From assembly GCA_016212095.1 (NCBI GenBank), contig JACRHH010000026.1:1-54192 (forward strand): 54,192 nucleotides of DNA, in the 5' to 3' direction. Of the stretch, positions 40,190 through 54,192 are shown piece after piece. Position numbers and translations under genes: made by a program. The DNA is from Nitrospirota bacterium (GTDB lineage: Bacteria; Nitrospirota; Thermodesulfovibrionia; SZUA-242). Every line of letters starts with the position of its first letter. Position 1 is the first letter of the stretch. The notes under the pieces were generated by a model. That model was not told the origin of the DNA, made no database searches, and saw only the letters and a program-made list of their open reading frames with translations.

Positions 40190-40269
40190 GGCTAACATAA
40201 AGGTGAGGGGCGCGCCGAAGGCGCGTCCCGGCGACCGGAGAGGGAGCGGACTTGAGCGTTGGGTTAGGC
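40190..40269 (-). repeat. attC-like recombination site 3
   Basis: On the minus strand the 80 bases start GCCTAACCCAACGCTCAAGT and end TTTATGTTAGCC. The outer boxes fit the attC plan RYYYAAC...GTTRRRY with one mismatch, and a GGGACGCGCC/GGCGCGCCCC hairpin fills the centre. The antitoxin gene's last bases lie in its 5' box, as is usual for cassette genes ending in attC. Confidence 0.5.
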
Positions 40270-40524
40270 TGCACGCGCAAGTGGAACCTCCCAGCCGGGA
40301 AATACGAGCACAGCAGGATGGCACTGGAGAGCACGAGCAAAAACCTTTGCGCGCTCGACACCCAAATTTACTCTACCGTTTTCAATGGCTGAGATAGTGG
40401 CTTGAGGGATACCCGTAAGTTCGGAAAGCTGGCTTTGGCTCAACTCCTGGAGTTCACGCAAAATGCGAACTGACTCTCCCACCGAGACTTCAACTCGTTT
40501 CTTTGCGGGACGAAACTCTTTCAT
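40264..40524 (-). CDS. XRE-type HTH antitoxin (HigA-like)
   Basis: 86 residues. The helix-turn-helix domain spans about 18-75 (VRILRELQELSQSQLSELTG then IPQATISAIENGRVNLGVERA). The pair toxin-then-antitoxin on one transcript is the HigBA order. Its Shine-Dalgarno AGGAGG lies in the last codons of the toxin gene, 1 base separates the toxin stop from this ATG, and the stop falls in an attC-like box. Confidence 0.88.
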   Translation of the reverse strand: MKEFRPAKKRVEVSVGESVRILRELQELSQSQLSELTGIPQATISAIENGRVNLGVERAKVFARALQCHPAVLVFPGWEVPLARAA

Positions 40525-40525
40525 A

Positions 40526-40810
40526 TCATGGCCTCCTGTAATCGTGGGCGGTTACTTGAACAACTTGAATCAGCAATACATTGGCAACAATGCGGTAAAT
40601 CACCCGCCACTGGAGCCCTAGCCAGGAAGAACGATGGCCTTTCCATTCACCTGACAGCGCCTCGTCGTGAAATCCCTTGATAAGGCGCAATCCCTGCGGC
40701 CCCGATATTCTGGCAATGTCTTTCCACTTCTCGTAACGTTTCAGAACTTCAACAGGAACGGAGCCGGAAAGCTGTTTGTCAACGCGGCGGTGTTCTTCGA
40801 TTTCCCACAT
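40526..40810 (-). CDS. RelE/HigB-superfamily toxin
   Basis: 94 residues. IEEHRRVDKQLSGSVPVEVLKRYEKWKDIA is the N-terminal helical part and GEWKGHRSSWLGLQWRVIYRIVANVLLIQVVQVTAHDYRR the catalytic strands with the family's L-G-x-x-W-R-V-x-Y-R and C-terminal H-x-Y. It is probably an mRNA-cleaving toxin. It sits first in a two-gene cassette with its own promoter. Confidence 0.85.
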   Translation of the reverse strand: MWEIEEHRRVDKQLSGSVPVEVLKRYEKWKDIARISGPQGLRLIKGFHDEALSGEWKGHRSSWLGLQWRVIYRIVANVLLIQVVQVTAHDYRRP

Positions 40811-40815
40811 GCCAC

Positions 40816-40845
40816 ATTATGGCCATATCATAAATGGTATGTCAA
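40816..40845 (-). promoter_or_regulatory. Promoter of the HigBA-like module
   Basis: On the minus strand TTGACA (40845-40840), an 18-base spacer and CATAAT (40821-40816), ending 6 bases before the toxin ATG. The spacer contains an imperfect dyad (CCATTTATGATATGG), a plausible operator for antitoxin autoregulation. Confidence 0.65.
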
Positions 40846-40866
40846 GGGCGACGATTCTTGGGTGGG

Positions 40867-40917
40867 GCCTAACGTGGAGCTAACCGGCGTTGCGCTTTTG
40901 CGGTGTCCGGGTTGAAC
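40867..40917 (-). repeat. attC-like recombination site 2
   Basis: On the minus strand it begins GTTCAACCCGG and ends CCACGTTAGGC. Both outer boxes fit attC (RYYYAAC and GTTRRRY). At 51 bp it is slightly shorter than typical sites. The preceding antitoxin gene ends inside it at 40880. Confidence 0.5.
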
Positions 40918-41203
40918 GTCGGGGCTGGCTGGTTTGCGGCTCCACAAGACGCCCCGTGACGTACTTGTGAAGGACGCTGGACATCAGTGTTTGATAAGGG
41001 ATTGCTTCTTCTGCGGCCTTGGCCTGAATGTCATCAAGATCGCGGGAAGAGATGCGAATATTAACCCGCTTGTCTTTAGCCAGAGATGCGGAAGCCATTG
41101 CAGCAAAGCGTGCAATTTCACTGTTGCCCTTTGGAGAGGGTTGCCATTCTCCTCTTTCAAAGGAAGCCAGAATTTCTTCCTCAAGTTTTCTTTCTTTGTC
41201 CAT
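40880..41203 (-). CDS. BrnA/CopG-like antitoxin
   Basis: 107 residues. KRVNIRISSRDLDDIQAKAAEEAIPYQTLMSSVLHKYVTGRL is a ribbon-helix-helix/BrnA-type C-terminal DNA-binding domain. The N-terminal part (ILASFERGEWQPSP) is the usual toxin-binding arm of this group. The ATG at 41203 is chosen for the GAGGAG 7 bases before it and lies 1 base past the toxin stop. The last 20 residues are encoded in the attC-like site and are likely non-conserved. Confidence 0.8.
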   Translation of the reverse strand: MDKERKLEEEILASFERGEWQPSPKGNSEIARFAAMASASLAKDKRVNIRISSRDLDDIQAKAAEEAIPYQTLMSSVLHKYVTGRLVEPQTSQPRRSTRTPQKRNAG

Positions 41204-41204
41204 T

Positions 41205-41483
41205 TCAACGCTCCTCATCAAGGTAGATGCGAGTAGCTTTCCTGCTCGGTATGATTGTTTTCAGGAAGACTTCTTGCTTCGTCTCCACAAACGGCACCAG
41301 ATAGGCGTAGCCACGAATACGAACCACAAACATGCGTTGGTTCGGATATTGATCTGTGTTTGGATGATCCAGCACTACAAGAAGTCCGCCATTCGACATG
41401 GCCGACAACACCTCCTCAAAAGATACACCTCGCTCTGCTTTGAGGCGGATATTTTTCTCGGTATTCCAGCTCACAGGCTTCAT
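41205..41483 (-). CDS. BrnT-like toxin
   Basis: 92 residues. VSWNTEKNIRLKAERGVSFEEVLSAM is the BrnT N-terminal pattern (W-x-x-x-K-N...R-G-V-S-F-E-E), followed by HPNTDQYPNQRMFVVRIRGYAYLVPFVE and TIIPSRKATRIY, the RelE-like strands. BrnT proteins are RNase-type toxins neutralised by BrnA. It is the first gene of a two-gene unit with promoter and flanking attC-like sites. Confidence 0.85.
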   Translation of the reverse strand: MKPVSWNTEKNIRLKAERGVSFEEVLSAMSNGGLLVVLDHPNTDQYPNQRMFVVRIRGYAYLVPFVETKQEVFLKTIIPSRKATRIYLDEER

Positions 41484-41490
41484 GCGGTGA

Positions 41491-41520
41491 ATAATACACC
41501 TGTGTGCCTTATGGCATCAA
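41491..41520 (-). promoter_or_regulatory. Promoter of the BrnT/BrnA-like module
   Basis: TTGATG (41520-41515), an 18-base spacer and TATTAT (41496-41491), ending 7 bases before the toxin ATG. The -10 is embedded in GGTGTATTATTCACC, a dyad that could be the operator. Confidence 0.6.
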
Positions 41521-41523
41521 GTG

Positions 41524-41613
41524 GCCTAACGCCAAGCCTGATCCGAGCCCGCCGAGGACTTCAGGGAAAAGCAACAGGCGTGGTCGGGCGTCGGCTCGAT
41601 GCTTTTGTTATCC
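41524..41613 (-). repeat. attC-like recombination site 1
   Basis: On the minus strand the 90 bases start GGATAACAAAAGCATCGAGCC and end GATCAGGCTTGGCGTTAGGC (each within 21 bases of an end). The right box GTTAGGC is canonical, and inner arms CATCGAGCC and GGCTCGGAT pair with one bulge, as in attC L boxes. It lies 49 bases after the AIPR gene's stop and 4 bases before the next promoter. Confidence 0.6.
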
Positions 41614-41661
41614 CTTTTGTAATAATCCTTGCCGCATAGCGGCCCACCGTGCATAGTTCTC

Positions 41662-43389
41662 TTAGACACCATCCGCCGTGCATCTGACCGTCTCTTGTTT
41701 TGTGATTTTCACGCTGTTGTACACTTTTTCGCATTTGGTGACGTTCTGAAAAAGTGAACGCAGGTAGCCTGCGGCGTACTCCCCCTCGCAGTAAGTGAAA
41801 ACTTTATCGACTGTGGCAGCCAAGATACCGTCAAATCCTTCCCAGTCGAATTTGGGCAGGCATTCGTTCAATTCCTTGTCCCACCCGATATCTCTGACAG
41901 CAATTTGTGTCACCAAGAGGCTACCATTCGACATTACCTGCGCCTTCCGACCCGACCGGTCTTGCTCCGGGAGTGTCTTTTGCAAATTCTCAAGGTATGC
42001 ATAAGCGTGTCGCTTTATGATGACGCCGTTGATCACCGAGAAGCCAGTTGTGGACGGATTGAAGAGAATCTTGTAGGGTGCCCTGTCGGGAATGTAAAAT
42101 CGACCAACTTCTTTCCGGAAGACCGCTGTCAGGTTAGGCTGTTTAGAGACGACAACCATCGACTCAATCGCCTCATCGAGTCCAAAGGACTTCTCTGATG
42201 GCGCAAACGAGCTATCCCGCTTGACTTGATAGCGGAAGCCCTGCAGACGTATCTGCCTCTGAAGATCATCCTGAACGGGGTCTTGGGAGATGAAGTCTTT
42301 TGACAGTATCTCGTTCTGGGTATTGTTAGTTCGCGTAATCTCCTTCTTCAGAGATTCCGTGTCGCCAGATACAGCGATGACTCGGATGGGCACTTCAATT
42401 GTTGAGAGGTCAGCACCGGATTTTGCCAGATCTCCCAATACGCTGACTGTTTGGGCGCCGTTGACAACGCTCGCGCCTTCGGCCTTGAAGTACCCGAAGT
42501 CGCGATTGTCTCGGTTCTCTTTGGTCTTTTCGACGGACTCTGCAAGGAGTGTGATCCCGTTATTGAAGTACCAAAAGTACTCCGGGCGCCTTTTCGCCGT
42601 ATCCGCGATTTGGTCGTTCACTGGTGTTGAGCCAAGCATCTTCCGAATGTTTGAGTCAAGGAGTCGGTCACCATGTTCCTGCCACCATTCGCCGATTTTG
42701 GTCCCGTTAATTCTTCCGAAGTATGACTTCAGCGGCTCCGCCACCTGGCCCCATTCCTTTAGGTGGAATTCCAAATTGAGCGACGTTGCGGTACTATCAC
42801 TCGAAAGTATGTTGAAGATCGTGGGCCGGCTAAGACTATGATAGCGGAAAACTGGATCGTCGGTGGGATCGTCAAAATCATTCAGTCCCGAAATTAATTC
42901 GTCTACAATCTCTTGGCCGTGCTTCGCCAGCTCTGGTTTTCCCGTGTGCGCCAGGACAATGTCGAATTTCACACCAAAAGTGCTAACAGCTGTGAGTTCT
43001 GCTGTTTTCGTCTGAACTTTGGAGTTGAATTTGCTCAGTTTCCCGTCGAGGAAGTCGTGGATTCCATCCCGGAACGTTCGGAGTTCATTGGCAGATGGCT
43101 CACCGACACCGTCTTGGATGAACTTTGCTTGGACTATCGTAAGGCGTTTCGTGATCTGATTGTAGTATATGGCGTCCAGGCCATTGTCATCTCCTCCGTC
43201 AACAACCGCTTTCCCGGCAATCACTTCCGTGCATTCGCCGAGGTGGTGCGCAGCGAATGCCGCAATGCACCGTGTAGTCAATTTCGTCTCGAACTCTTTG
43301 TCAGAAGTGCTCAGGTCGGACGTGTCGATATGGGTGGCATACAGCTCACGCAGTCTCGATGCGATCTGCTTCACTATAACCTTGCTCAT
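41662..43389 (-). CDS. AIPR-family abortive-infection phage resistance protein
   Basis: 575 residues. The N-terminal third holds a PD-(D/E)XK-like core (GGDDNGLDAIYYNQITKRLT then IVQAKF, i.e. D...Q-x-K). RPEYFWYFNNGITLLAESVE (about 272-291) and EGASVVNGAQTVSVLGDLAK are the hallmark AIPR motifs. Members confer phage abortive infection in some hosts; the mechanism is probably nucleolytic. GGGAGA before the ATG at 43389 supports the start. Its codon use is more AT-rich than the glycan operon. Lying upstream of attC-like site 1, it could itself be a cassette. Confidence 0.88.
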   Translation of the reverse strand: MSKVIVKQIASRLRELYATHIDTSDLSTSDKEFETKLTTRCIAAFAAHHLGECTEVIAGKAVVDGGDDNGLDAIYYNQITKRLTIVQAKFIQDGVGEPSANELRTFRDGIHDFLDGKLSKFNSKVQTKTAELTAVSTFGVKFDIVLAHTGKPELAKHGQEIVDELISGLNDFDDPTDDPVFRYHSLSRPTIFNILSSDSTATSLNLEFHLKEWGQVAEPLKSYFGRINGTKIGEWWQEHGDRLLDSNIRKMLGSTPVNDQIADTAKRRPEYFWYFNNGITLLAESVEKTKENRDNRDFGYFKAEGASVVNGAQTVSVLGDLAKSGADLSTIEVPIRVIAVSGDTESLKKEITRTNNTQNEILSKDFISQDPVQDDLQRQIRLQGFRYQVKRDSSFAPSEKSFGLDEAIESMVVVSKQPNLTAVFRKEVGRFYIPDRAPYKILFNPSTTGFSVINGVIIKRHAYAYLENLQKTLPEQDRSGRKAQVMSNGSLLVTQIAVRDIGWDKELNECLPKFDWEGFDGILAATVDKVFTYCEGEYAAGYLRSLFQNVTKCEKVYNSVKITKQETVRCTADGV

Positions 43390-43887: not shown

Positions 43888-46647
43888 CTAGAACGCATGT
43901 CCCAGGCTGAAATGAATCTCGAACCTGCTCTCGCCCGGTTCCGGGGCGAATTTTTGCCCGTAATCGAGCCTGAACGGCCCGACCGGCGTGTTGTAGCGGA
44001 TGCCGCCTCCATATGTGTACTTGAAACCCACCGGATTGACGTCCTCGGTTTTCTGCCAGACGTTTCCTCCATCCACAAAGCCCACCAGCCCCAGCCCCTT
44101 CCAGACATCAACCCGCAGCTCGGCGTTTCCGAGCGCGTACACGTTTCCGCCTGTCGGGGTTCCGTCATCGGCCTTCGGGCCGAGGGTGTCGCGGGCGTAT
44201 CCCCTCACGCTCGAACCGCCGCCCAGGAAAAAGCGCTCGACAATAGGAAGCTCCTTGTCGCGCCCCATGCCGTGGGCAAAGCCGCCCTTGAAGGACAGCG
44301 CCGCCACAAGCGGACGCGCCAGATGAAAATACCAACTGCTCTGGCCCGTCAGCTTGATGAATTCGGTCTCCGACATCAGGGCCTTGCTTGCGATCTTGAC
44401 CACGGCGGCGTTCAGCGAGCCGTGGCGCGGATTGAACGGATTGCTTCTGGTGTCGCGCGCAAGTGACGGGCTGAGGCTGCTTATTCCAAGCGTGCCGACG
44501 TCGTCACGGCTCAGAATCTCGCCCGGTCTCACGTTGAATGTATCCACAAACGAGTATTCATACTCCAGCGAGCCCTTGACCGTCTCGGAAAAATCGCGGT
44601 CTATTCCGGCGATGAATGCGCTGCGGTCGCTCTCGTATCGAATCTCGCGGGTGTCGGCGTCCAGCTTCCTCATGTTCTCGCGTATGAGCGCCGCCCGGAA
44701 CGGAAGCTTGTAACTGGTCAGAAGCCACGGGTCTTCATAGCGAAGAATCCATCGCCGCTCCACCGCGCTTGCCTCGCCGCGCAGTGAAAGCCTTCGGTTC
44801 AGGCCGCCCAGATTCCGGTGGCCTATCTCCACAAATCCGCGCGCAAGGTCGTAGTCGCCATATCCCACGCCGAAATCAACGGAGCCAAACGGGGCCTCGG
44901 TTACCCGCACAACCATGTCCTGGCTGTTGGGGCTTGCGCCCTCGCGCGCCGTCTCGATGTCAACGGACGAGAATATCCGCATCTTGTGAAGCGCCCGTTT
45001 GCCCTCCAGCACCTTGCGGTAGTCGAAATATTCGCCTTCCGAAACCCCGAATTCGCGCTGGATTATTCCGTCCAGGGTGCGGTGGTTTCCGGCGACTATC
45101 GTCTTGCCGAAGCGGAACTGGCGGCCTTCGGAGACCTGGAACACTATATCCACCTTCCGCATGTCATCCGAAAAATTACGCTGAAGATTCACCGACGCGT
45201 CAACGAATCCCGCCGAGCCGAACTTCTCGATCAACCGCATCCGCGCGTCGGATACGTCGGTCTCGTTGTATGTCCGGCCGATCTCCAGCCCAAGCGTATC
45301 GTGAATCTCCGATTCGTCGAAGGCCGTCACTCCCTCCAGCGCAACGCTTCTTATCGTTGTGCGCGGCCCCTCGCCGATTGTGACCGTAACCGATGCCTCG
45401 CCGGGCTTGAAGTCGAGATTGCGAGTGGAGACCATTGCCTCGGCCTTGAGCCAGCCAAGCGCGTTGTACAGCGAGATGATTCTGGCGATGCCCGCGCCAA
45501 GCCGCGCTTCGCTGTACGGATCGCCTTCCGGATAATCGAACGCCTCGCGAATTTTCTCTTCGGGCAGCGTGGCTCCGGTGAATTCAATCCTGCGCAGTAT
45601 TATCCTTGGCCCCTCGTAAATAAAAAAAACCACGACGCGCTCATCGCGCTCTTCCTCGACTGTGGCCGCAGCCTGCGCAAACGGATACCCGCGCTTGTGG
45701 TAAAGCGAGACATATCTGAGCGCCGCCTCCTCTATCGTTTCGTCGGAGAACGGTTCGACAGCTTCATCCATCCGGTATTCCGAAAGGAGTTCGTGTTCAT
45801 TGACCGCCTCGATCCCGTCGAACCTCACCCTGAACAGCGGCCCGTCGTCGAACACCACGCGAAGCGTCCCGTCCCTGAACGACCAATCCGGTTTGCGAGC
45901 CGCATAATGGCCGTCCAATTTCATGTCGGCATAAAGCCCATCAAGCGCGGCGCCGAGAGCCGCGCTGTTGAACCTGTCGCCGGCGGCAAACGGAATATGC
46001 ATCGCCACCCGCTCCCTGTCGCCGTTTCCCTCCAGTTCGATCCGTTGAACCAGCCTGGGCTCGCCTTCCGCAATCAAAATCTCAACGTCAACCACTCCCG
46101 AACCGGCTGCCGCTTCAGCCTTGATTGCAACCCTCGCATCGGGAAACCCGTATTCATCGTATGCCTTCTCAATCCGGCGCTCGACGTCGGATCTTCTGTC
46201 CGCATGGAATTCCGCGCCACGCCTGTAGCCGGACAACTTCATGATTTCCTTGTTCGGGAGGGCGAAATTGCCGTTTACAGTCACACCGGCAATTCGTGTC
46301 TTTTCAGTCACAACCACAAGTATCGGCACGCCGCCCTCATCGGGATCAAGCGCCTCAACCCTCACATCGGTGAATATGCCCTTCCTGAAAACGCGGGAAA
46401 TGCCGCGCCGCACGCGCTCCATCGTGATCTTCATTCCGGGATGCAGGCCAAACAGCTCCAGAAAATAGTCTTCGTCCATGCCGGTCAAGCCCTGAACCGC
46501 AACAACGGAAACCGGCCTGCCGAGATAATTTTGAGGTTCAGCGGCAGACGCGGGACATGCGGGCAGGAACGTGACGATCAGCCAGACAACCGCCACCAGC
46601 GCAAGCATACGGCGGATGGCCGATGCCGTTGTCCTGCGCTCATTCAT
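43888..46647 (-). CDS. BamA/TamA-type outer-membrane assembly protein
   Basis: 919 residues. A signal anchor/peptide at about 10-36 (VAVVWLIVTFLPACPASAAE) is followed by five or more POTRA repeats (about 45-560). A C-terminal 16-strand barrel holds the VRGY loop motif in GGGSSVRGYARDTLGPK, GGGIRYNTPVGPFRLDYG near the end and the C-terminal Phe (FSLGHAF) used as the assembly signal. It inserts or exports outer-membrane proteins. The sequence is longer than E. coli BamA (about 810), and it could be a second BamA/TamA paralogue. AAAGGAGG supports the start. No bam partners adjoin. Confidence 0.88.
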   Translation of the reverse strand: MNERRTTASAIRRMLALVAVVWLIVTFLPACPASAAEPQNYLGRPVSVVAVQGLTGMDEDYFLELFGLHPGMKITMERVRRGISRVFRKGIFTDVRVEALDPDEGGVPILVVVTEKTRIAGVTVNGNFALPNKEIMKLSGYRRGAEFHADRRSDVERRIEKAYDEYGFPDARVAIKAEAAAGSGVVDVEILIAEGEPRLVQRIELEGNGDRERVAMHIPFAAGDRFNSAALGAALDGLYADMKLDGHYAARKPDWSFRDGTLRVVFDDGPLFRVRFDGIEAVNEHELLSEYRMDEAVEPFSDETIEEAALRYVSLYHKRGYPFAQAAATVEEERDERVVVFFIYEGPRIILRRIEFTGATLPEEKIREAFDYPEGDPYSEARLGAGIARIISLYNALGWLKAEAMVSTRNLDFKPGEASVTVTIGEGPRTTIRSVALEGVTAFDESEIHDTLGLEIGRTYNETDVSDARMRLIEKFGSAGFVDASVNLQRNFSDDMRKVDIVFQVSEGRQFRFGKTIVAGNHRTLDGIIQREFGVSEGEYFDYRKVLEGKRALHKMRIFSSVDIETAREGASPNSQDMVVRVTEAPFGSVDFGVGYGDYDLARGFVEIGHRNLGGLNRRLSLRGEASAVERRWILRYEDPWLLTSYKLPFRAALIRENMRKLDADTREIRYESDRSAFIAGIDRDFSETVKGSLEYEYSFVDTFNVRPGEILSRDDVGTLGISSLSPSLARDTRSNPFNPRHGSLNAAVVKIASKALMSETEFIKLTGQSSWYFHLARPLVAALSFKGGFAHGMGRDKELPIVERFFLGGGSSVRGYARDTLGPKADDGTPTGGNVYALGNAELRVDVWKGLGLVGFVDGGNVWQKTEDVNPVGFKYTYGGGIRYNTPVGPFRLDYGQKFAPEPGESRFEIHFSLGHAF

Positions 46648-46803: not shown

Positions 46804-46878
46804 GGGCGATTGGCTCAGCGGAAGAGCACTGCCTTCACACGGCAGGGGTCGCAGGTTCGAACCCCGCATCGCCCACCA
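46804..46878 (+). tRNA. tRNA-Val (anticodon CAC)
   Basis: GGGCGAT/ATCGCCC form the acceptor stem, GCTC/GAGC the D stem and CTGCC/GGCAG the anticodon stem with loop TTCACAC, giving CAC, which reads GTG (Val). The T loop is TTCGAAC. CCA is encoded (46876-46878). The T stem GCAGG/CCCGC carries one A-C mismatch. The neighbouring recombinase genes suggest this gene is an integration site. Confidence 0.93.
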
Positions 46879-46890
46879 TTAACATTAAGA

Positions 46891-46918
46891 AGGGAGCCTT
46901 TGAAAAGGCTCCCTTTTT
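46891..46918 (+). terminator. Intrinsic terminator after tRNA-Val
   Basis: AGGGAGCCTT and AAGGCTCCCT pair perfectly (10 bp) around TGAA and are followed by TTTTT. It lies 12 bases after the tRNA. Confidence 0.9.
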
Positions 46919-46991
46919 CAATGGGTTGAAAAGATACATGGTAACCCGCCAAGCCTTCTGAATCGCTCCTGTCATATCAATTTATTTTGAT

Positions 46992-47031
46992 TGTGCCCAT
47001 TCTGTGCCCGTATTGTGCCCGCTCTGTGCCC
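46992..47031. repeat. Four 11-bp direct repeats (TGTGCCCNNNN)
   Basis: TGTGCCC begins at 46992, 47003, 47014 and 47025, exactly 11 bp apart, so all copies face the same side of the helix. Such phasing is typical of protein-binding iterons. The stretch lies between tRNA-Val and the cargo genes, where recombinase arm sites are expected. No gene occupies 46919-47226. Confidence 0.85.
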
Positions 47032-47061
47032 ACCCATAAATTCACGACGCCTACCACATAT

Positions 47062-47090
47062 CGGCAGGTATCACATTTTGACGCCTGCCG
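47062..47090. repeat. Inverted repeat near the presumed element end
   Basis: CGGCAGG (47062-47068) and CCTGCCG (47084-47090) form a 7-bp dyad with a 15-base centre, flanked by near-matching ATAT/TATG. It may be a recombinase core or regulatory site. No other assignment is possible from the sequence. Confidence 0.45.
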
Positions 47091-47226
47091 TATGCGCCAA
47101 GAAAATCAATTCACATCACGCGCAATGAAAAATGCGGATAATCAGACGGGCTCCTTCGGTGTGTACTCCAATAGGTCTTCTATGGAACTGAGCTTCCCCC
47201 GTTATTTCGTCGTCCACGGACTCACA

Positions 47227-47820
47227 TCACCCGCTCCCACGCCCTTTCCCCTGCCTCCCCCTCCGTTTCTCATTAATCCTCCTGTTCCTGCTGCTCTTGT
47301 TCTCCTTCGCCTTGGCCTCATATTCCTTCGACTTGCTGTCCCACACAAACATCGGCAGCTCGGCACGTATGGCCGTTATCTGCGGATCGTCGGCATCGGG
47401 ATTGCGGCGTTCCCTGATTTTATGCATCCATTCGGCGAGTTCTTTAAGCTCATCTTGCGACAACGCCTTTGACTGCACCAGCGTCCAGCCGCGCCGGGTG
47501 AGACAGAGATCGCCCTGTTCGTTGAGGTAGCGCTTCGCAAGCTCAATTCGGCGGAGAAACTTTTTGTCACTTGCAGAAGCGGCGGCAGATTCCATTGCAG
47601 CCGGATCAATTCCTGCCGCGCGTAAACTTTCGGCTTTTGCTGAAGACAGCTTCCCAAGCTTGAGCCGGCTTTTCAGGCTGCGCACCCATACCGAAAGGCT
47701 TGCCGTATCGCCATGCTCCGGCGGAATTACGTTGCCTTCGGCGGCGATCCATGCCTTAAGCTCGCCAAGCATCCGCTCCCAAAGATCTTTGCGTTTTACC
47801 CCTCGTTTATCGAAACTCAT
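47227..47820 (-). CDS. Protein with helicase-associated-type domain, cargo gene
   Basis: 197 residues from the ATG at 47820; an upstream in-frame TTG at 47832 is less likely. Residues about 15-70 (WERMLGELKAWIAAEGNVIP, then LSVWVRSLKSRLKLGKLSSAKAESLRAAGI) follow the helicase-associated (HA) domain pattern W...L..w...G....p...L..W....R....G.L. The rest is charged and ends in an Arg/Gly/Lys-rich tail. HA domains are thought to bind nucleic acid. The role is unknown, perhaps in element maintenance. It is the gene closest to the tRNA end of the element. Confidence 0.65.
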   Translation of the reverse strand: MSFDKRGVKRKDLWERMLGELKAWIAAEGNVIPPEHGDTASLSVWVRSLKSRLKLGKLSSAKAESLRAAGIDPAAMESAAASASDKKFLRRIELAKRYLNEQGDLCLTRRGWTLVQSKALSQDELKELAEWMHKIRERRNPDADDPQITAIRAELPMFVWDSKSKEYEAKAKENKSSRNRRINEKRRGRQGKGRGSG

Positions 47821-47900
47821 CGGTTCAGGCAACTCGCTTCAACAATTAAGCACATAATCCAATTACACGCATACAAAATCCGGAGGCTTAAGAGTTGCTG

Positions 47901-48125
47901 TCAAGGCCGCCCTTGACTTGAAACGACCCGTTTTCTCTTCAATCCCAATTCCGATGCCGCTTCCTGAAACGAGCGCCCCTGCTGGTTTCGAGGATCTGAC
48001 TTGGCCTTGCGTAATGCCAACAGATCGTGATAGTCATCCAGTTCTTGCCGCATACGAAGGAAATCCTTATAAGGAATTACGGCAAACTCTTTCTTGCCCT
48101 GTTTTTCGATCACTTGTGCTTCCAT
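47901..48125 (-). CDS. Phd/RelB-type antitoxin
   Basis: 74 residues. KEFAVIPYKDFLRMRQELDDYHDLLALRKAKSDPRN resembles Phd/YefM-type antitoxins (V-I-P-x-x-x-F-x-x-L...L...D...AL). The basic C-terminal region (LKRKR) may contact the toxin or DNA. The start is 4 bases after the stop of the RelE-like gene, so the toxin is encoded first, the reverse of the usual order. Confidence 0.7.
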   Translation of the reverse strand: MEAQVIEKQGKKEFAVIPYKDFLRMRQELDDYHDLLALRKAKSDPRNQQGRSFQEAASELGLKRKRVVSSQGRP

Positions 48126-48129
48126 TTGA

Positions 48130-48378
48130 TTAGCGGTATGCCTCCTTTCGATGAAGAATCCGGTAAATGATGGCCTTGTTCCCTGCTACTTCGAAAAGAA
48201 TCCGGAAGTTTCCGACCCTGAGCCGATACTCTGGAGAAAAATTGGTTAACTTCTTGATATCACCCACCAGTCCGTCTTCAAGTCCGAAGATAGCATCTGC
48301 AATATCTTGGGCATCAGCTTTCGAAATGGCTGACAAATCTTTCTCCGCCCGTTTACGGATTTCGATGTCATATCGCAT
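48130..48378 (-). CDS. RelE/ParE toxin
   Basis: 82 residues. MRYDIEIRKRAEKDLSAISK starts the RelE fold and LTNFSPEYRLRVGNFRILFE with the following IIYRILHRKEAYR contains the family's Y-R-L-R-V-G-x-F-R-x-x-F and C-terminal H-R-K-x-x-Y-R. Length is typical. It lies 66 bases beyond the end of the large recombinase gene and may be read from the same transcript. Confidence 0.9.
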   Translation of the reverse strand: MRYDIEIRKRAEKDLSAISKADAQDIADAIFGLEDGLVGDIKKLTNFSPEYRLRVGNFRILFEVAGNKAIIYRILHRKEAYR

Positions 48379-48444
48379 GGTTGATTATAGCGCAGAATCC
48401 ATAACCAGCAGAAACACCCGGTCATAAATATCCGTCATCGCTCA

Positions 48445-51400
48445 TCACTTATTCAGTCCCAACTCCGCCCCGAATGCAATCAGTGCCATCTGCATGGCGA
48501 AGGTAAACACATTGCTGGCCTCCCGCCTGGCGTCGATGTCTTTTGGAGGCTTCAGCACCTTGACGCCAACTGCTCCATCACTGCCTGTGGTGTATTTACC
48601 GGAAGGCACGCTTCCGATGGCAATGTTTATCTTTGCTCCGGCAAGCGCCTTGCGCCATGTTTCCATTGACGCCGAAGCATCCTTCCCCCGCACAGGATAA
48701 TGCGTAAGAACAATCTCCTTTCGGCTTACCGGCATTGCGGCAAGGAACTGAAGCCAGGCAACAAGGTCGCTGCTGTTTCCGGCAAGAACATTGTTCTGCG
48801 TCGATCGAAAGGATCTCAAAAACACCCTTAATCCGTGGTAAAGCAGGGCCATCTGCCTGGAGTCGGCAAGCTTTTCGCAGGCGTTCAGGATTTTGTCTGC
48901 CAGCCTGAGATCGTTATTGCCGTGCGGCTTGGCAGGTATCAGGCGCTTCGACACGGCTTGCGAATTTCTGCTCAGCATGGCGGATGTCTTTTTCGCCATG
49001 ACTTTCCACCTCTCAAACGATTCAAGACCGATTCCGTACACCTCCAAAACTCTATCCGCCTCCATGCCCTCATGCAGATGTTTTTCGAGCGCTGCATGTA
49101 TCCGCCTCCACGAGTATCGCTCTGCCGATGACTCACCGGCAATAACGATCTTTTTTGCCCCAGTGTTTCTTGCGCTATCGTCAAGCGGCTCCCTGAGAGA
49201 TTCCGAAACCGTTACGTCGAGGTTTTTGACCATGCCTTTAACATGCGGCCCGATAATCCATCGCTTATTGGCAAGTTTCCCCTGATTTCTGTAGATGGTG
49301 GCTGTCGATAGCCCGGTGATCTTTTGTATGGTCGGCTCGCCTATTTCCGGCTGGGCATCTTCCTGCCAGAGCGCTCTGCCAAGCATGAAGTCGCACAGAT
49401 GCGTGTAGTTGAGAAGCGTGGTTGCCGGAGACGCATGGCCGCAGAGCATCGAAACGCTGTATAGCGCCGGGCGGCCAAGATGCTCGTTGCCAAGCAGTCC
49501 CTTTATTATTTTGTCGCGCGATTTGTCCTTGTAATTATTCATGAACGGAAACCTCGGCAGACCCGAAGCATCGGGATTGCCAACGAGGCACAGCAGCAGC
49601 CAGTTTGCAAACGAATGGCGGAGATGATGAAACCGCAGCCTGTCGTCTCCGGTAACGGCCCGAAGCGCTTTATGTATCTGCGGAAATATCGTCTCTTCCG
49701 GAATAGGAAGGCGGCTTCCGGGCTCGGCGAACACCGGCGCGGTTATGTCCTCATCTTCCTTCCTGCGTTTCTTAATCCAGTCAACGAACATCCGAAGTTC
49801 ATCGCTGTCCAGCAGCAAATACATCGGAACCCGCCTGACCGAATCTGATGATTTCAATAAAGCGTACCGGCTGCTTCGCACAAGAAGCTCCGGCTGTTTA
49901 TCGCCGTGAACATCGCAAAGCCGGATATTGCGCGCCTCGTTTCTCCGAAGCCCGCAGCGAAAACCGAGTATCGTTATCAGCAATCTCACCATCGAAATCC
50001 TGTCGGCGTTTCCGTCCGGATTAAGCAATGCCAAGGTTTTCTTGTGCATCGCCGGTGAGATGAGGTTTGCATCAACTGAAGCCTCAGGCGGCCCAAGCTT
50101 TCTTGAGGCTATGTTGTTGAAATCAACCGGCGGGGCTCCGTAGCGATCCATCAGGAAAAGATGAAACCTGTAAAGCGTCAGTCCGCAAAGATACCGCTGC
50201 GATACATCCTTGATTTTGTTTACCACGCTCAAATACAGCTCGCGATAATCATCGCCTTCGAATGAAGCCAGATCGGCATCAATAGCTTCGGCGATAAGGT
50301 GTCCACCGATCGCGCGTATGTATCCGCGAATCGTACCCGGCCTCACCTGCGCCTTGGTTGTCCATGAGGGTATGCTGGTCTTCCGCATCAAATGCTTAAC
50401 CGTCCAACTGGCCAGAAGATGCAATACCGGTAAAAACATATGGCTCTTGTCCCTGACGAATTTTTCAACGCGGCTTCTGACGTCAGAGTTTTGCTCCCTT
50501 GTTATCTGGCCGGGCGGAACAATCGTATTCAGCAGCTCCTTTAACAGGCTATGCTGTTTGTCGGTGTCTTCGCCCGCGTAATCAGACGGAATGGAGAGGT
50601 TTTTCGCATCCGTGGGCGCGTTATCGAGATCGTTCCCGCCACCTGTAACGGTGTGCACCGCCTTTCCCGTCCGAAGCCGCGTCCACGCGGAAGGCGAAAG
50701 TGAAACGGCTTTCGTATCTCCCTTGGCGTAGGCAACAAGGTATTGCGGCAGATAAAGGCTTAGGCGAACAGATGCCCACTGAGCCAGTGTCTTTATGTCC
50801 GGCGCTGATTTGCGGTTTTCGCCAATCTCTTTCCAGAAGGCGGAAAGATATTCATCGGAGCTTGAATCAGGCTTGTCGGGATTACCGGCAAGCCAGCGCA
50901 GCATGAGCGCCTGCGTAAGCGGATCGGCAAACCACCTTCGAATTATCCTGAACGTTTCGCTTTTCTCCCCGGTTTCAAACGTGTATTTGTTCGCCGCCGC
51001 TTTTTCGATGTCCACCCAGAAAATATCGCCGTCCAGTCTTGCGCGCGACGGAATCGAGCCAAGCCATGCCTCAATCCATTCAAGATCGAGAAGTCCGCCG
51101 TACACCACGGCAGAATATAGCAGCAGGCCTATTTCCGAACTACCACCCGATTGAAAGGATTGGGAGAAAATATGTTCGAGAACTTTTCCTTCAATTGCCC
51201 GCAGTGCTGCCAGCCCACGGAAATAATCCGGAGTGAACGTCGGCGGATCGGGAGTTATTGCAACCGGCGGAGCTGGTACGTATGCTTTCCAGCCAAGTGT
51301 GCGCTTTCCGTCTTCCACTATCCTGACAAGAAACTGCATCCTGTGCTTGAAAACATAGATGTCGTTATCGTCTTTGAGTTTTGCCCTTATAGCCTCGACA

Positions 51401-51564
51401 TCGGCGCGGGTTATCTCCAGATCGCGCACGCCCGCAAACATATCGGGCTGAAGATGTTTCAGTACGGTGAGTGCTTTTTGTTGCTCATGCCGTCGCTGTT
51501 CGCTTGGACTTTTCTTTTCGCCCGGAATTATCAGGCGGCTCCAATAGCCATAATCCAAGGACAT
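48445..51564 (-). CDS. Very large tyrosine recombinase (1039 aa)
   Basis: The catalytic domain lies at about residues 505-730. The first Arg is in GFRCGLRRNEARNIR (about 535-550), HLRH in LRFHHLRHSFANWLL (about 645), and the GH...Y end in LCGHASPATTLLNYTHL (about 710-725). This matches R-HxxR-H-Y of phage-type integrases. About 500 N-terminal residues and about 300 C-terminal residues surround it; the latter include a possible helix-turn-helix (GEPTIQKITGLSTATIYRNQ). It is much larger than usual integrases (300-450). It follows the second recombinase by 4 bases, as in multi-recombinase mobile elements (Tn554 or recombinase-in-trio type). Confidence 0.8.
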   Translation of the reverse strand: MSLDYGYWSRLIIPGEKKSPSEQRRHEQQKALTVLKHLQPDMFAGVRDLEITRADVEAIRAKLKDDNDIYVFKHRMQFLVRIVEDGKRTLGWKAYVPAPPVAITPDPPTFTPDYFRGLAALRAIEGKVLEHIFSQSFQSGGSSEIGLLLYSAVVYGGLLDLEWIEAWLGSIPSRARLDGDIFWVDIEKAAANKYTFETGEKSETFRIIRRWFADPLTQALMLRWLAGNPDKPDSSSDEYLSAFWKEIGENRKSAPDIKTLAQWASVRLSLYLPQYLVAYAKGDTKAVSLSPSAWTRLRTGKAVHTVTGGGNDLDNAPTDAKNLSIPSDYAGEDTDKQHSLLKELLNTIVPPGQITREQNSDVRSRVEKFVRDKSHMFLPVLHLLASWTVKHLMRKTSIPSWTTKAQVRPGTIRGYIRAIGGHLIAEAIDADLASFEGDDYRELYLSVVNKIKDVSQRYLCGLTLYRFHLFLMDRYGAPPVDFNNIASRKLGPPEASVDANLISPAMHKKTLALLNPDGNADRISMVRLLITILGFRCGLRRNEARNIRLCDVHGDKQPELLVRSSRYALLKSSDSVRRVPMYLLLDSDELRMFVDWIKKRRKEDEDITAPVFAEPGSRLPIPEETIFPQIHKALRAVTGDDRLRFHHLRHSFANWLLLCLVGNPDASGLPRFPFMNNYKDKSRDKIIKGLLGNEHLGRPALYSVSMLCGHASPATTLLNYTHLCDFMLGRALWQEDAQPEIGEPTIQKITGLSTATIYRNQGKLANKRWIIGPHVKGMVKNLDVTVSESLREPLDDSARNTGAKKIVIAGESSAERYSWRRIHAALEKHLHEGMEADRVLEVYGIGLESFERWKVMAKKTSAMLSRNSQAVSKRLIPAKPHGNNDLRLADKILNACEKLADSRQMALLYHGLRVFLRSFRSTQNNVLAGNSSDLVAWLQFLAAMPVSRKEIVLTHYPVRGKDASASMETWRKALAGAKINIAIGSVPSGKYTTGSDGAVGVKVLKPPKDIDARREASNVFTFAMQMALIAFGAELGLNK

Positions 51565-51568
51565 AGAA

Positions 51569-53992
51569 TTATTTCGACAGGCCGGACATCGGCTTCCAGC
51601 CCAGTTCCTGCATCATTTCGGGAAGATGTCTGGCCAGTTCGTTACGGTAGTCAATCGGCGACATGCCGGAATAACGCCCCCAAGGCTCTTGCCCGATATG
51701 CGAATGCCCCATGAAGGCGTTAATCACATCCACATTGCATCCGCGCTCAAAAAGCGTGGAACGAAGATAATGGCGGTGGGCGTTCATCGGCAGGGAATAG
51801 ACATCGCTCACCTGTCTTGCCAGCAGGCCCGGCGAAACCTGCTCGAAAGCTCTGTTTGGCTGAATTATAAATGTTTCGGGAAAGCTGTCTGATCGTCGCC
51901 CCGAATCGACTTTGCCAGCAAGCCGGTGGTACAGCTTGACATTCACCTCCGGCGCTAAATTTTTAAAAACAGCCAGATGACGCCTGTAATGCCTGATCTG
52001 CGTCCGGCACGATTCCGGCAGCCACACTATGCGCGTATTGTAATAAGTGCGGCGATATTCTCCACGCCGTAATTCCTCGCCCTCCTTGTCGCTCAACATC
52101 GCAAAGCCGCTTGCCTCGTCCATCTCGGTCTCCTCGAAAAGCGGATCGACAACAGCTCGATACCCGGTCGCAAAGCTGAGCATGAATACCGTGTACAGCG
52201 TCATGCGGTTATGAACCTCGATGATCCTTGGCAGTCCGCGAGGCATATTTCGCGAATTGGCCAATTCCGATTGAAGTTTCCGGACAAGCGCGGTAATGTC
52301 GTCAAGCTCCGGAACCATCCGGCTTCCGATATGCAAGCCTGTTCCGGCGGCTTCAGTGGATTGGAGTTTCCCTTCTTTCATTGGTATGATGTGCGATCCG
52401 TGCTCCTTGACCCTTGCGGCAATTTCCGCCCAGGTTTCCCTGTATATCCGGTTCAGATCGAATGCCGATATGCGCGTGTAGTGCAGGCCGGAACCCGATA
52501 GAACATGGTTCCGTCCGGTGATGAGGCTTGCGGCTACTATGTCTGAATCTTGATGACGGGCCAGCTTGTTGAATATGAACCTTTCAACTCGCGAAATGGA
52601 TAGTCTGGAGCCGTATTCGCTATTGAGATATTTAAAAAACAGTTTGATACGGTTCGCGTAGTGCTCCAATCCCTTATCAAACGGCTTACAGAAAGGTGAA
52701 TTCCGTTTGATGTTCGATCCGGACACGGTATTCATTATTTCGAAATATTCAATTAATCTGTATTCCAGACCCACGCCGCTTGATATCCGCACAAATTGAA
52801 ACTCAGATGCTTGATTGTCCGCCAATTCCGGTCTTGCCGGCCTGATAAACCATGAGGCGCTATCCATGCTGAAGTACCACGCGTCCGGGTCACGGTCACG
52901 GATTTCATGCAAATTGTCGTCTCGCTCAATCACACGCAGGTGCGGCAGGGATTGTAGCTCACAGCTTGTCAGCGTCAATGTCATCAGCGCGGCCTTGATA
53001 TCTGTATCCATCTCTGATGTCTTGCCGCATTGCTTCATCCAAAAGTGGCTATTTACCAATCCGGAAATTACCAGACTTGCCTCGTAATCTGTCAGTGTTT
53101 CATAACTTCCGGAAAGCACCTGGTTTCTCTTTGATATCGCGTCCTTGGCATTGCCGCAGTACCGGGCGTAGATGGCGGCGGACATGCCTCGCGTCGGCTT
53201 TTCAGCATTGTCGGCAATTTCAACGATTTCAATGTTGGCGGCATACTCCGTGTGTGTGGCTCCGGACTGTCTCAGCGCTTGAGAATATTTCTTTCCGACG
53301 GGCATGGACATTGTTCTTATGACTTGTCTTCTCTGGGCCTGATATGTCTTCTTCTTGGCATCAACCGGGCTTGGCAATTCGTCGCCTCCAGCCTCGTCGA
53401 ACGTGGCTTCCATTATGGCGGGGCGCTCATGTGTCGGCTCATTTCCATGGCGAGTTCTTTTTACAGGAGATGTTATTTGAATCGCAATCTCCATGAAGCG
53501 AAGTATGTGTTCGTACTTTTTAATGCTGTTTTGTTTGGAAGCATTCGCGTGGTCGGTTTCAATTGAGTCAGATGTTTCTTTGAAAATGAGATCAAGTAAG
53601 TCGCTTTCATTTTTGTCGAAGTTGTTAATAGAGTCGGATATTTCCTTATAGTATTTTTCAATCCCGGCGGCCTTTTCAGGGAAATCCCGTAATAGTGAAG
53701 ATTGCTCTTTGTATGATAATTGTCGTACATCGAGAAAAGCGTAGTATTTTCTGCTATTGAACGCTTCAGTATCTTCATCGCTCAACCCGGAATCATACGT
53801 TTTTCGATACAGCATTAGCGCGACAAGGCTTTCCGCCTGTAACAGCCGGTAAGCTGATTTATGCGAGGATTTTGTCGGACTGCAACAAACCGCAGCATAC
53901 GCCGGATTGGATTGGAGATACATACGAAGCGGCGGGCTGCCGGGATCGGAAACCGGGAAATCGAGATCTTTGATGCCAAGACCAAGTTCCAC
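51569..53992 (-). CDS. Second large tyrosine recombinase, 5' end probably cut by an IS
   Basis: 807 residues from a GTG at 53992. The catalytic motifs sit at the C-terminal end: first Arg in FATGYRAVVDPL (about 615-626), HxxR in MNAHRHYLRSTLFERG (about 738-745), and GH...Y in FMGHSHIGQEPWGRYS (about 760-775). The frame stays open upstream to about 54067, and 53993-54052 encodes plausible protein (LDDLPQWIKAVQIIADKR). No ATG exists, and an IS630-like element begins at about 54055, so the true N-terminus is likely missing. It is the first gene of the recombinase pair. Confidence 0.75.
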   Translation of the reverse strand: MELGLGIKDLDFPVSDPGSPPLRMYLQSNPAYAAVCCSPTKSSHKSAYRLLQAESLVALMLYRKTYDSGLSDEDTEAFNSRKYYAFLDVRQLSYKEQSSLLRDFPEKAAGIEKYYKEISDSINNFDKNESDLLDLIFKETSDSIETDHANASKQNSIKKYEHILRFMEIAIQITSPVKRTRHGNEPTHERPAIMEATFDEAGGDELPSPVDAKKKTYQAQRRQVIRTMSMPVGKKYSQALRQSGATHTEYAANIEIVEIADNAEKPTRGMSAAIYARYCGNAKDAISKRNQVLSGSYETLTDYEASLVISGLVNSHFWMKQCGKTSEMDTDIKAALMTLTLTSCELQSLPHLRVIERDDNLHEIRDRDPDAWYFSMDSASWFIRPARPELADNQASEFQFVRISSGVGLEYRLIEYFEIMNTVSGSNIKRNSPFCKPFDKGLEHYANRIKLFFKYLNSEYGSRLSISRVERFIFNKLARHQDSDIVAASLITGRNHVLSGSGLHYTRISAFDLNRIYRETWAEIAARVKEHGSHIIPMKEGKLQSTEAAGTGLHIGSRMVPELDDITALVRKLQSELANSRNMPRGLPRIIEVHNRMTLYTVFMLSFATGYRAVVDPLFEETEMDEASGFAMLSDKEGEELRRGEYRRTYYNTRIVWLPESCRTQIRHYRRHLAVFKNLAPEVNVKLYHRLAGKVDSGRRSDSFPETFIIQPNRAFEQVSPGLLARQVSDVYSLPMNAHRHYLRSTLFERGCNVDVINAFMGHSHIGQEPWGRYSGMSPIDYRNELARHLPEMMQELGWKPMSGLSK

Positions 53993-54110
53993 TCTTTTAT
54001 CCGCTATTATCTGAACAGCCTTAATCCACTGTGGCAGGTCATCAAGGCCACCTAGTGAACCGTGCGGTTAATTCATTAAGCATTCACATTTCCGTGGTAG
54101 AGTATCCGGC

Positions 54111-54192
54111 ATGGGAAAACGGCCAAGGGAATTTACAATTGTGGAAGCGGATCGTGAGGAGCTGGGGCGGTGGCTGCGGGCCGGAACCACGG
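54111..54192 (+). CDS. IS630-like transposase, 5' end only (runs off the right edge)
   Basis: 27 residues are visible: MGKRPREFTIVEADREELGR followed by WLRAGTT, which matches the N-terminal helix that precedes the helix-turn-helix of IS630-family transposases (V-x-A-D-R-x-x-L-x-x-x-x-R-A-x-T-T). Most of the gene lies outside. The element may start at the TA at 54053-54054, the usual IS630 target dinucleotide, which would place it inside the recombinase gene. Terminal repeats cannot be confirmed with one end. Confidence 0.6.
   Translation, partial: MGKRPREFTIVEADREELGRWLRAGTT

Follow-up and report, generated by a model that had tools for sequence, protein, structure and literature searches.

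A closely coupled pair of giant recombinase-fold genes near a tRNA-Val gene in a Nitrospirota bacterium, and its relatives in genomic islands and plasmids

The window analyzed here is an entire contig (C20; 54,192 bp) from a Nitrospirota genome of 2.97 Mb in 39 contigs, and its right-hand end carries a tRNA gene, a short repeat array, cargo genes, and two adjacent genes for very large proteins, termed here B and A (Table 1). An earlier note on this DNA had listed a tRNA, an iteron array, an HA protein, RelE/Phd cargo, and a tandem pair of recombinases; all of these were confirmed, with the toxin matching ParE. B matches the Phage_integrase family at residues 521 to 657 only (E = 1.8e-11 in Pfam), and A scores just 0.042 in the same library. 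The long N- and C-terminal regions of both proteins, which had been described as devoid of recognized domains, remained so in searches of four libraries (Pfam, NCBIfam, PHROGs, and PADLOC), which likewise returned no informative family beyond Phage_integrase for sampled A and B proteins. On the other side of a bamA-like gene (43888 to 46647) from the tRNA-Val element, the minus strand encodes HigBA-like and BrnTA-like toxin-antitoxin pairs together with an AIPR/AbiU-like gene (40264 to 43389), which make up a small defense cluster.

Table 1. Annotated features at the right-hand end of the 54,192-bp window
Feature	Position	Strand	Evidence or remark
tRNA-Val (CAC)	46804..46878	+	ARAGORN; candidate attachment site, 3' end towards island
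Four TGTGCCC copies at 11-bp spacing	46992..47031	+	Putative integrase arm-type sites; gene of this conventional integrase absent here
HA (helicase-associated) domain protein, cargo	47227..47832	-	PF03457, E = 4.4e-13
Phd/YefM-like antitoxin, cargo, weak match	47901..48125	-	E = 0.026
ParE-type toxin, cargo	48130..48378	-	PF05016, E = 1.5e-9; 66 bp from B stop
Recombinase B, 1,039 aa	48445..51564	-	PF00589; R540, K571, H646, R649, H710, and Y720 present
Recombinase-fold partner A, 827 codons left	51569..54052	-	R632, K656, R760, and H783 kept
TA of CTAG target, IS insertion point in gene A	54053..54054		
IS630/Tc1-like IS left end: terminal repeat GTGAACCGTGCGGTTAATT, then transposase start	54055..54192	+	Contig stops within IS

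The contig stops at position 54192 because of an IS repeat and not because of the size of gene A. The reading frame of A stays open upstream of a GTG at 53992 as far as the TA at 54053-54054, within a CTAG at 54052 to 54055, and from there an IS630/Tc1-like element takes over, beginning with its left end. Contigs C17, C24, C26, and C32 of this genome likewise start or stop at such a left end, and contigs C15, C29, and C37 start with a right end of the element, so that the assembled ends number five left (C20 included) versus only three right. A multicopy IS of this type, with CTAG as its target, lies behind many of the contig breaks in the genome. In alignments to relatives, homologs of A are ~40 to 80 N-terminal residues longer than the window copy, which holds 827 codons of an estimated 870 to 910. 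The sizes given in the earlier note thus hold for B (1,039 aa); the figure for A (at least 807) has to be replaced by the 827 codons that remain of a gene truncated by the IS. Since the IS630-like copy splits A, this copy of the pair is probably immobile. Of the contigs that open with a right end, C29 supplies an in-frame ATG five codons upstream when joined to A, but this is probably due to chance, as the homologs are ~40 to 80 residues longer; neither C15 nor C37 gives a start codon. A parallel to the window is found in the Acinetobacter baumannii plasmid pOCUAc18-1 (L199:16058-23767), where A is split by an IS630 element and B by an IS3 element (ISAba19).

A and B constitute a real, conserved, and closely coupled gene unit. 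When 84,980 species genomes were scanned, a query built from two aligned sequences recovered 74 loci, mostly from Proteobacteria, with some from Nitrospirota, Acidobacteria, and other groups; about nine weak matches from Bacteroidetes/Ignavibacteria are proteins of ordinary size, and the same scan using B alone gave no matches. Of the 73 loci scored, 55 have an A-type gene along with B, the gap between the two is −135 to +10 bp in 47 of 49 complete pairs, and the median lengths are 842 aa for A and 1,095 aa for B. Single polypeptides combining both are encoded in an Algiphilus MAG (L218:5439-11180; 1,913 aa) and in Thiomicrorhabdus marina (L247:4860-10283; 1,807 aa); such a fusion could in principle arise from a sequencing frameshift, yet these are two independent cases. 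Searches with tblastn placed B on plasmids of Sphingobium, Vibrio, Ketogulonicigenium, Aeromonas, Sphingomonas, and Acinetobacter, where it is directly preceded by a large A-type gene or by an unnamed large gene. A small gene (~80 to 430 aa) with no confident domain often stands before A, and in some Nitrospirota a ParB_N-like gene lies in or beside the recombinase operon (L040:4592-5542 and L042:784-1827). No relatives of B were detected in IMG/VR and none of A in annotated phages. The pair is widespread but apparently unnamed; a literature search that left out most subscription journals found no paper describing it.

The R-K-H-R-H-Y residue set, together with the PF00589 match, places B in the tyrosine recombinase superfamily. 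Its R540, K571, R649, H710, and Y720 are invariant in all 73 sequences, and the box-II His (H646) is present in 70 of them. The A family likewise keeps R632, K656, R760, and H783 without exception (72/72), with the box-II His changed to Asn in 67 of 72 sequences. The position of the nucleophile is occupied by Tyr in 21 of the 72, Phe in 23, His in 7, and Asp in 6, and it is directly followed by Ser in 69; the A family retains its phosphate-binding residues but has no conserved nucleophilic Tyr, the window copy being among those that keep the Tyr (Y794). AlphaFold models of A and B are of modest confidence (mean pLDDT of 55 and 61, respectively). In Foldseek searches, the modest-confidence model of A resembles the integrase 3nkh in its C-terminal half (probability, 1.00; E = 5e-3), so that A models as an integrase fold, and the B model resembles XerH, Tn1549 Int, and Cre. 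From these patterns we infer that B would cleave DNA and that A would serve mainly as a binding or architectural partner.

On balance, we consider it probable that A and B are the two large subunits of a single heteromeric tyrosine-recombinase machine situated at one end of genomic islands. In such a machine, B would cut and rejoin DNA, and A would bind core DNA, largely without cleaving it, and order or orient the synapse. A quite different possibility is that the pair is island cargo with another job, such as DNA-end control, defense, or regulation, and no longer recombines. The lack of a conserved nucleophile in A would fit with this, as would the location of several A-B relatives among restriction-type genes, but the core catalytic residues of B are kept in 73 of 73 sequences, the pair stands at island ends, and no PADLOC model matches either protein; we regard this possibility as improbable.

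Among the multirecombinase systems that have been described, A-B works most like GInt. GInt islands (ginABCD) carry, in this order, the recombinase genes ginA, ginB, and ginC and then ginD; the third recombinase is degenerate and lacks the first Arg, and the element is flanked by imperfect direct repeats of 10 to 17 bp (PMC5385486). Like GInt, the A-B islands have a recombinase operon at the island end, cargo right after its last gene, and one subunit with an incomplete active site. The cargo indeed begins promptly: in the window, the ParE gene lies 66 bp from the B stop, and on Acinetobacter plasmids the cargo changes within ~50 to 290 bp past B. However, A-B is no GInt, as the systems differ in the number of recombinases, in gene order, and in the kind of degenerate subunit. 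There are two large recombinases in the order (small gene)-A-B, the degenerate one comes first, and it has the first Arg in 72 of 72 sequences, having lost the conserved Tyr instead. Moreover, the far end of A-B islands may be occupied by a conventional Arm integrase.

The remaining systems share single features with A-B. The strand-biased circularizing integrative elements (SEs; intA-tfp-intB-srap; PMC10214605) also place a recombinase-fold protein with an incomplete motif ahead of a large catalytic one, but pSEA1 (NZ_AP024167), an SE carrier present in the searched collection, was matched by neither A nor B of the window, and no Vibrio alfacsensis record was recovered at E = 1e-5. The Gamma-Mobile-Trio (GMT) islands resemble A-B islands in bearing recombinases and being rich in defense cargo. 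The GmtY model (NF040693; 441 positions) stayed below its cutoff throughout the present genome, and in Marinobacter bryozoorum it matches two other loci and not A-B. Judged by sequence similarity, A and B are thus neither SE nor GMT recombinases. Tn554 and its long actinobacterial relatives (PMC3414803) have two adjacent tyrosine recombinases, one of them long with an unrecognized N-terminal extension, but, as described, the partner of the long protein has an ordinary size and each of the two has the catalytic motif (PMC3414803), whereas A and B are both giant and A is without the conserved Tyr. Recombinase-in-trio (RIT) elements are similar in comprising several adjacent recombinases, three in their case; archetypal RIT proteins, however, are 315 to 410 aa long, and none of them lacks the catalytic tyrosine (PMC10214605), in contrast to the two large recombinases of A-B, with their median lengths of 842 and 1,095 aa and a Tyr that is not conserved in A.

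The genomic settings of the relatives bear on how the pair is related to tRNA genes. No tRNA stands beside A-B in any of the 19 loci checked, and one occurs near the pair in 5 of 59 loci, usually kilobases off; taken broadly, therefore, A-B is not a tRNA element, with Polynucleobacter as the exception. On Acinetobacter plasmids, the flank upstream of the module is constant and the DNA becomes variable within ~50 to 290 bp after B, and these modules have no Arm-DNA-bind_2 integrase; conserved blocks are visible at the module ends. Such observations would be expected if A-B were an autonomous GInt-like module, with the operon at its own 5' end, cargo behind B, and a target of its own, that is nested in, or lies beside, conventional tRNA islands, so that the tRNA-Val and the array in the window would have no connection to it. 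In one genome (G117), a dispersed repeat of up to ~240 bp, with many further sites in the genus, directly adjoins the module at its 3' end (L040:11288-11530). An apparent empty site in genus g105 was rejected, since the supposed flank proved to be a dispersed repeat; no empty site and no excision were observed.

The Polynucleobacter islands speak against an autonomous module. In five genomes with differing cargo, the operon follows the 5' half of a tRNA-Val(GAC) gene that ends in the anticodon loop, and A-B lies ~165 to 310 bp from this attachment fragment. Three islands (11.7, 29.5, and 66.5 kb) are complete, with the far end on the same contig and marked by an intact tRNA-Val, and all follow a constant plan: tRNA fragment, A, B, cargo, Arm-DNA-bind_2 integrase, and intact tRNA-Val. 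A threonyl-tRNA-synthetase-like gene lies beyond the intact tRNA-Val in the two islands inspected for it, and one locus (L254) has a tRNA repeat of 22 + 15 bp. The comparison of insertion sites in relatives proposed in the earlier note reveals, in Polynucleobacter, islands in a tRNA-Val gene with A-B at one end and a third recombinase, broadly in line with its prediction. As grounds for rejecting its reading, the note had named the lack of a direct repeat of the tRNA end together with occurrence of the same recombinases at non-tRNA sites, and the 0 of 19 and 5 of 59 loci beside or near a tRNA go halfway toward this.

The strong enrichment of Arm-type integrases in the vicinity of A-B likewise does not sit easily with an autonomous module. 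An Arm-DNA-bind_2 integrase was found near the pair in 27 of 55 loci, mostly convergent and 0.6 to 1 kb past B; in Acidithiobacillus it is on the opposite side, upstream of A. By comparison, 733 kb of other loci gave no strong Arm-type match. Within the flanks searched, which extend for ~8 kb at most, such an integrase is missing from half of the A-B loci, and this, like the Acidithiobacillus arrangement, counts against the heteromeric-machine reading. Two genomes of the Nitrospirota group (G141 and G351) have A, B, cargo, integrase, and tRNA-Thr in this order, the 3' end of the tRNA facing the island. The Polynucleobacter islands resemble conventional tRNA islands with an Arm-DNA-bind_2 integrase in their tRNA target, in their attachment at a tRNA fragment, and in having the integrase near the tRNA. 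Such conventional islands are not known to have a giant A-B pair at their far end. Weighing both sides, we think it rather unlikely that A-B is an autonomous module. We tentatively suggest that A-B and a conventional Arm integrase could together define distinct "two-ended" islands, with the heteromeric giant recombinase at one end and a standard integrase serving the tRNA end; the A half of the former would have a phosphate-gripping site with no dedicated Tyr and a near-invariant Ser alongside.

The tRNA-Val end of the window has to be read against these islands. The array starts 114 bp past the 3' end of the tRNA, and four TGTGCCC copies at an exact 11-bp spacing are not expected by chance (0 in 100 shuffles). 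Among 396 genomes of the phylum, the only other exact array (G011; L190:1377-2578) lies between the 3' end of a tRNA-Lys and a convergent conventional integrase (PF00589; E = 1.5e-31). IMG/VR yielded 54 matches to the array, of which 1 is near a detected integrase; arrays there being so rarely close to an integrase, the arm-site reading is drawn from the single case of G011. The TGTGCCC array is possibly a general arm-site signature of tRNA islands. In the window, it is most likely the arm-site array of a different, conventional integrase, and, by the arrangement in G011, the tRNA end probably belongs to an integrase that has been lost. As the array looks like conventional-integrase arm sites, the giant pair need not recognize tRNA-Val. 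That the sole other genome with the array pairs it with a conventional integrase is also in keeping with an autonomous A-B module, and the array could be part of an unrelated island.

The attR repeat of the tRNA 3' end anticipated in the earlier note was not found: the 3' end (31 and 21 bp, with up to 3 mismatches) and the 5' half of tRNA-Val each occur once in the assembly, and the contig ends in the IS. Nor was a third recombinase found, there being no integrase or remnant at 46878 to 48500 beside the tRNA and no third integrase elsewhere in the assembly. With no tRNA duplicate in the assembly, the far end of the island would be missing or unassembled. Synteny around tRNA-Val was considered as a guide to the other flank and dismissed, since the neighbors are not conserved in genomes of the same family. 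The absence of a duplicated tRNA fragment would also follow if tRNA-Val and A-B marked separate insertions, unrelated to each other and neighbors by chance. This seems rather unlikely, as only cargo-type genes (HA and ParE/Phd) lie between tRNA-Val and A-B, and the polarity of A, B, cargo, and tRNA is the same as in G141/G351 and Polynucleobacter. Anchoring of the window element at the tRNA is plausible, and the proposal that this is one end of an integrated element with paired recombinases is partly borne out by the islands of relatives, though not by an att repeat in this genome. Under the heteromeric-machine interpretation, a conventional integrase would serve the tRNA end, and the window island would run from tRNA-Val, with the arm-site array still present and the integrase gene lost, past the HA gene and the ParE/Phd pair as cargo to B and then A.

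Islands that need several recombinases are known (GInt, SE, and Tn554), and the A-B family offers a natural experiment on why more than one is required: one giant subunit has every catalytic residue, and its sister keeps the charge pocket without the nucleophile, the two being nearly always together and sometimes fused. The Polynucleobacter islands, which are complete and have defined ends, make the division of labor between A, B, and the integrase at the tRNA end directly testable. Naming the A-B pair would also serve the annotation of proteins that are now labeled "hypothetical protein" or "site-specific integrase."
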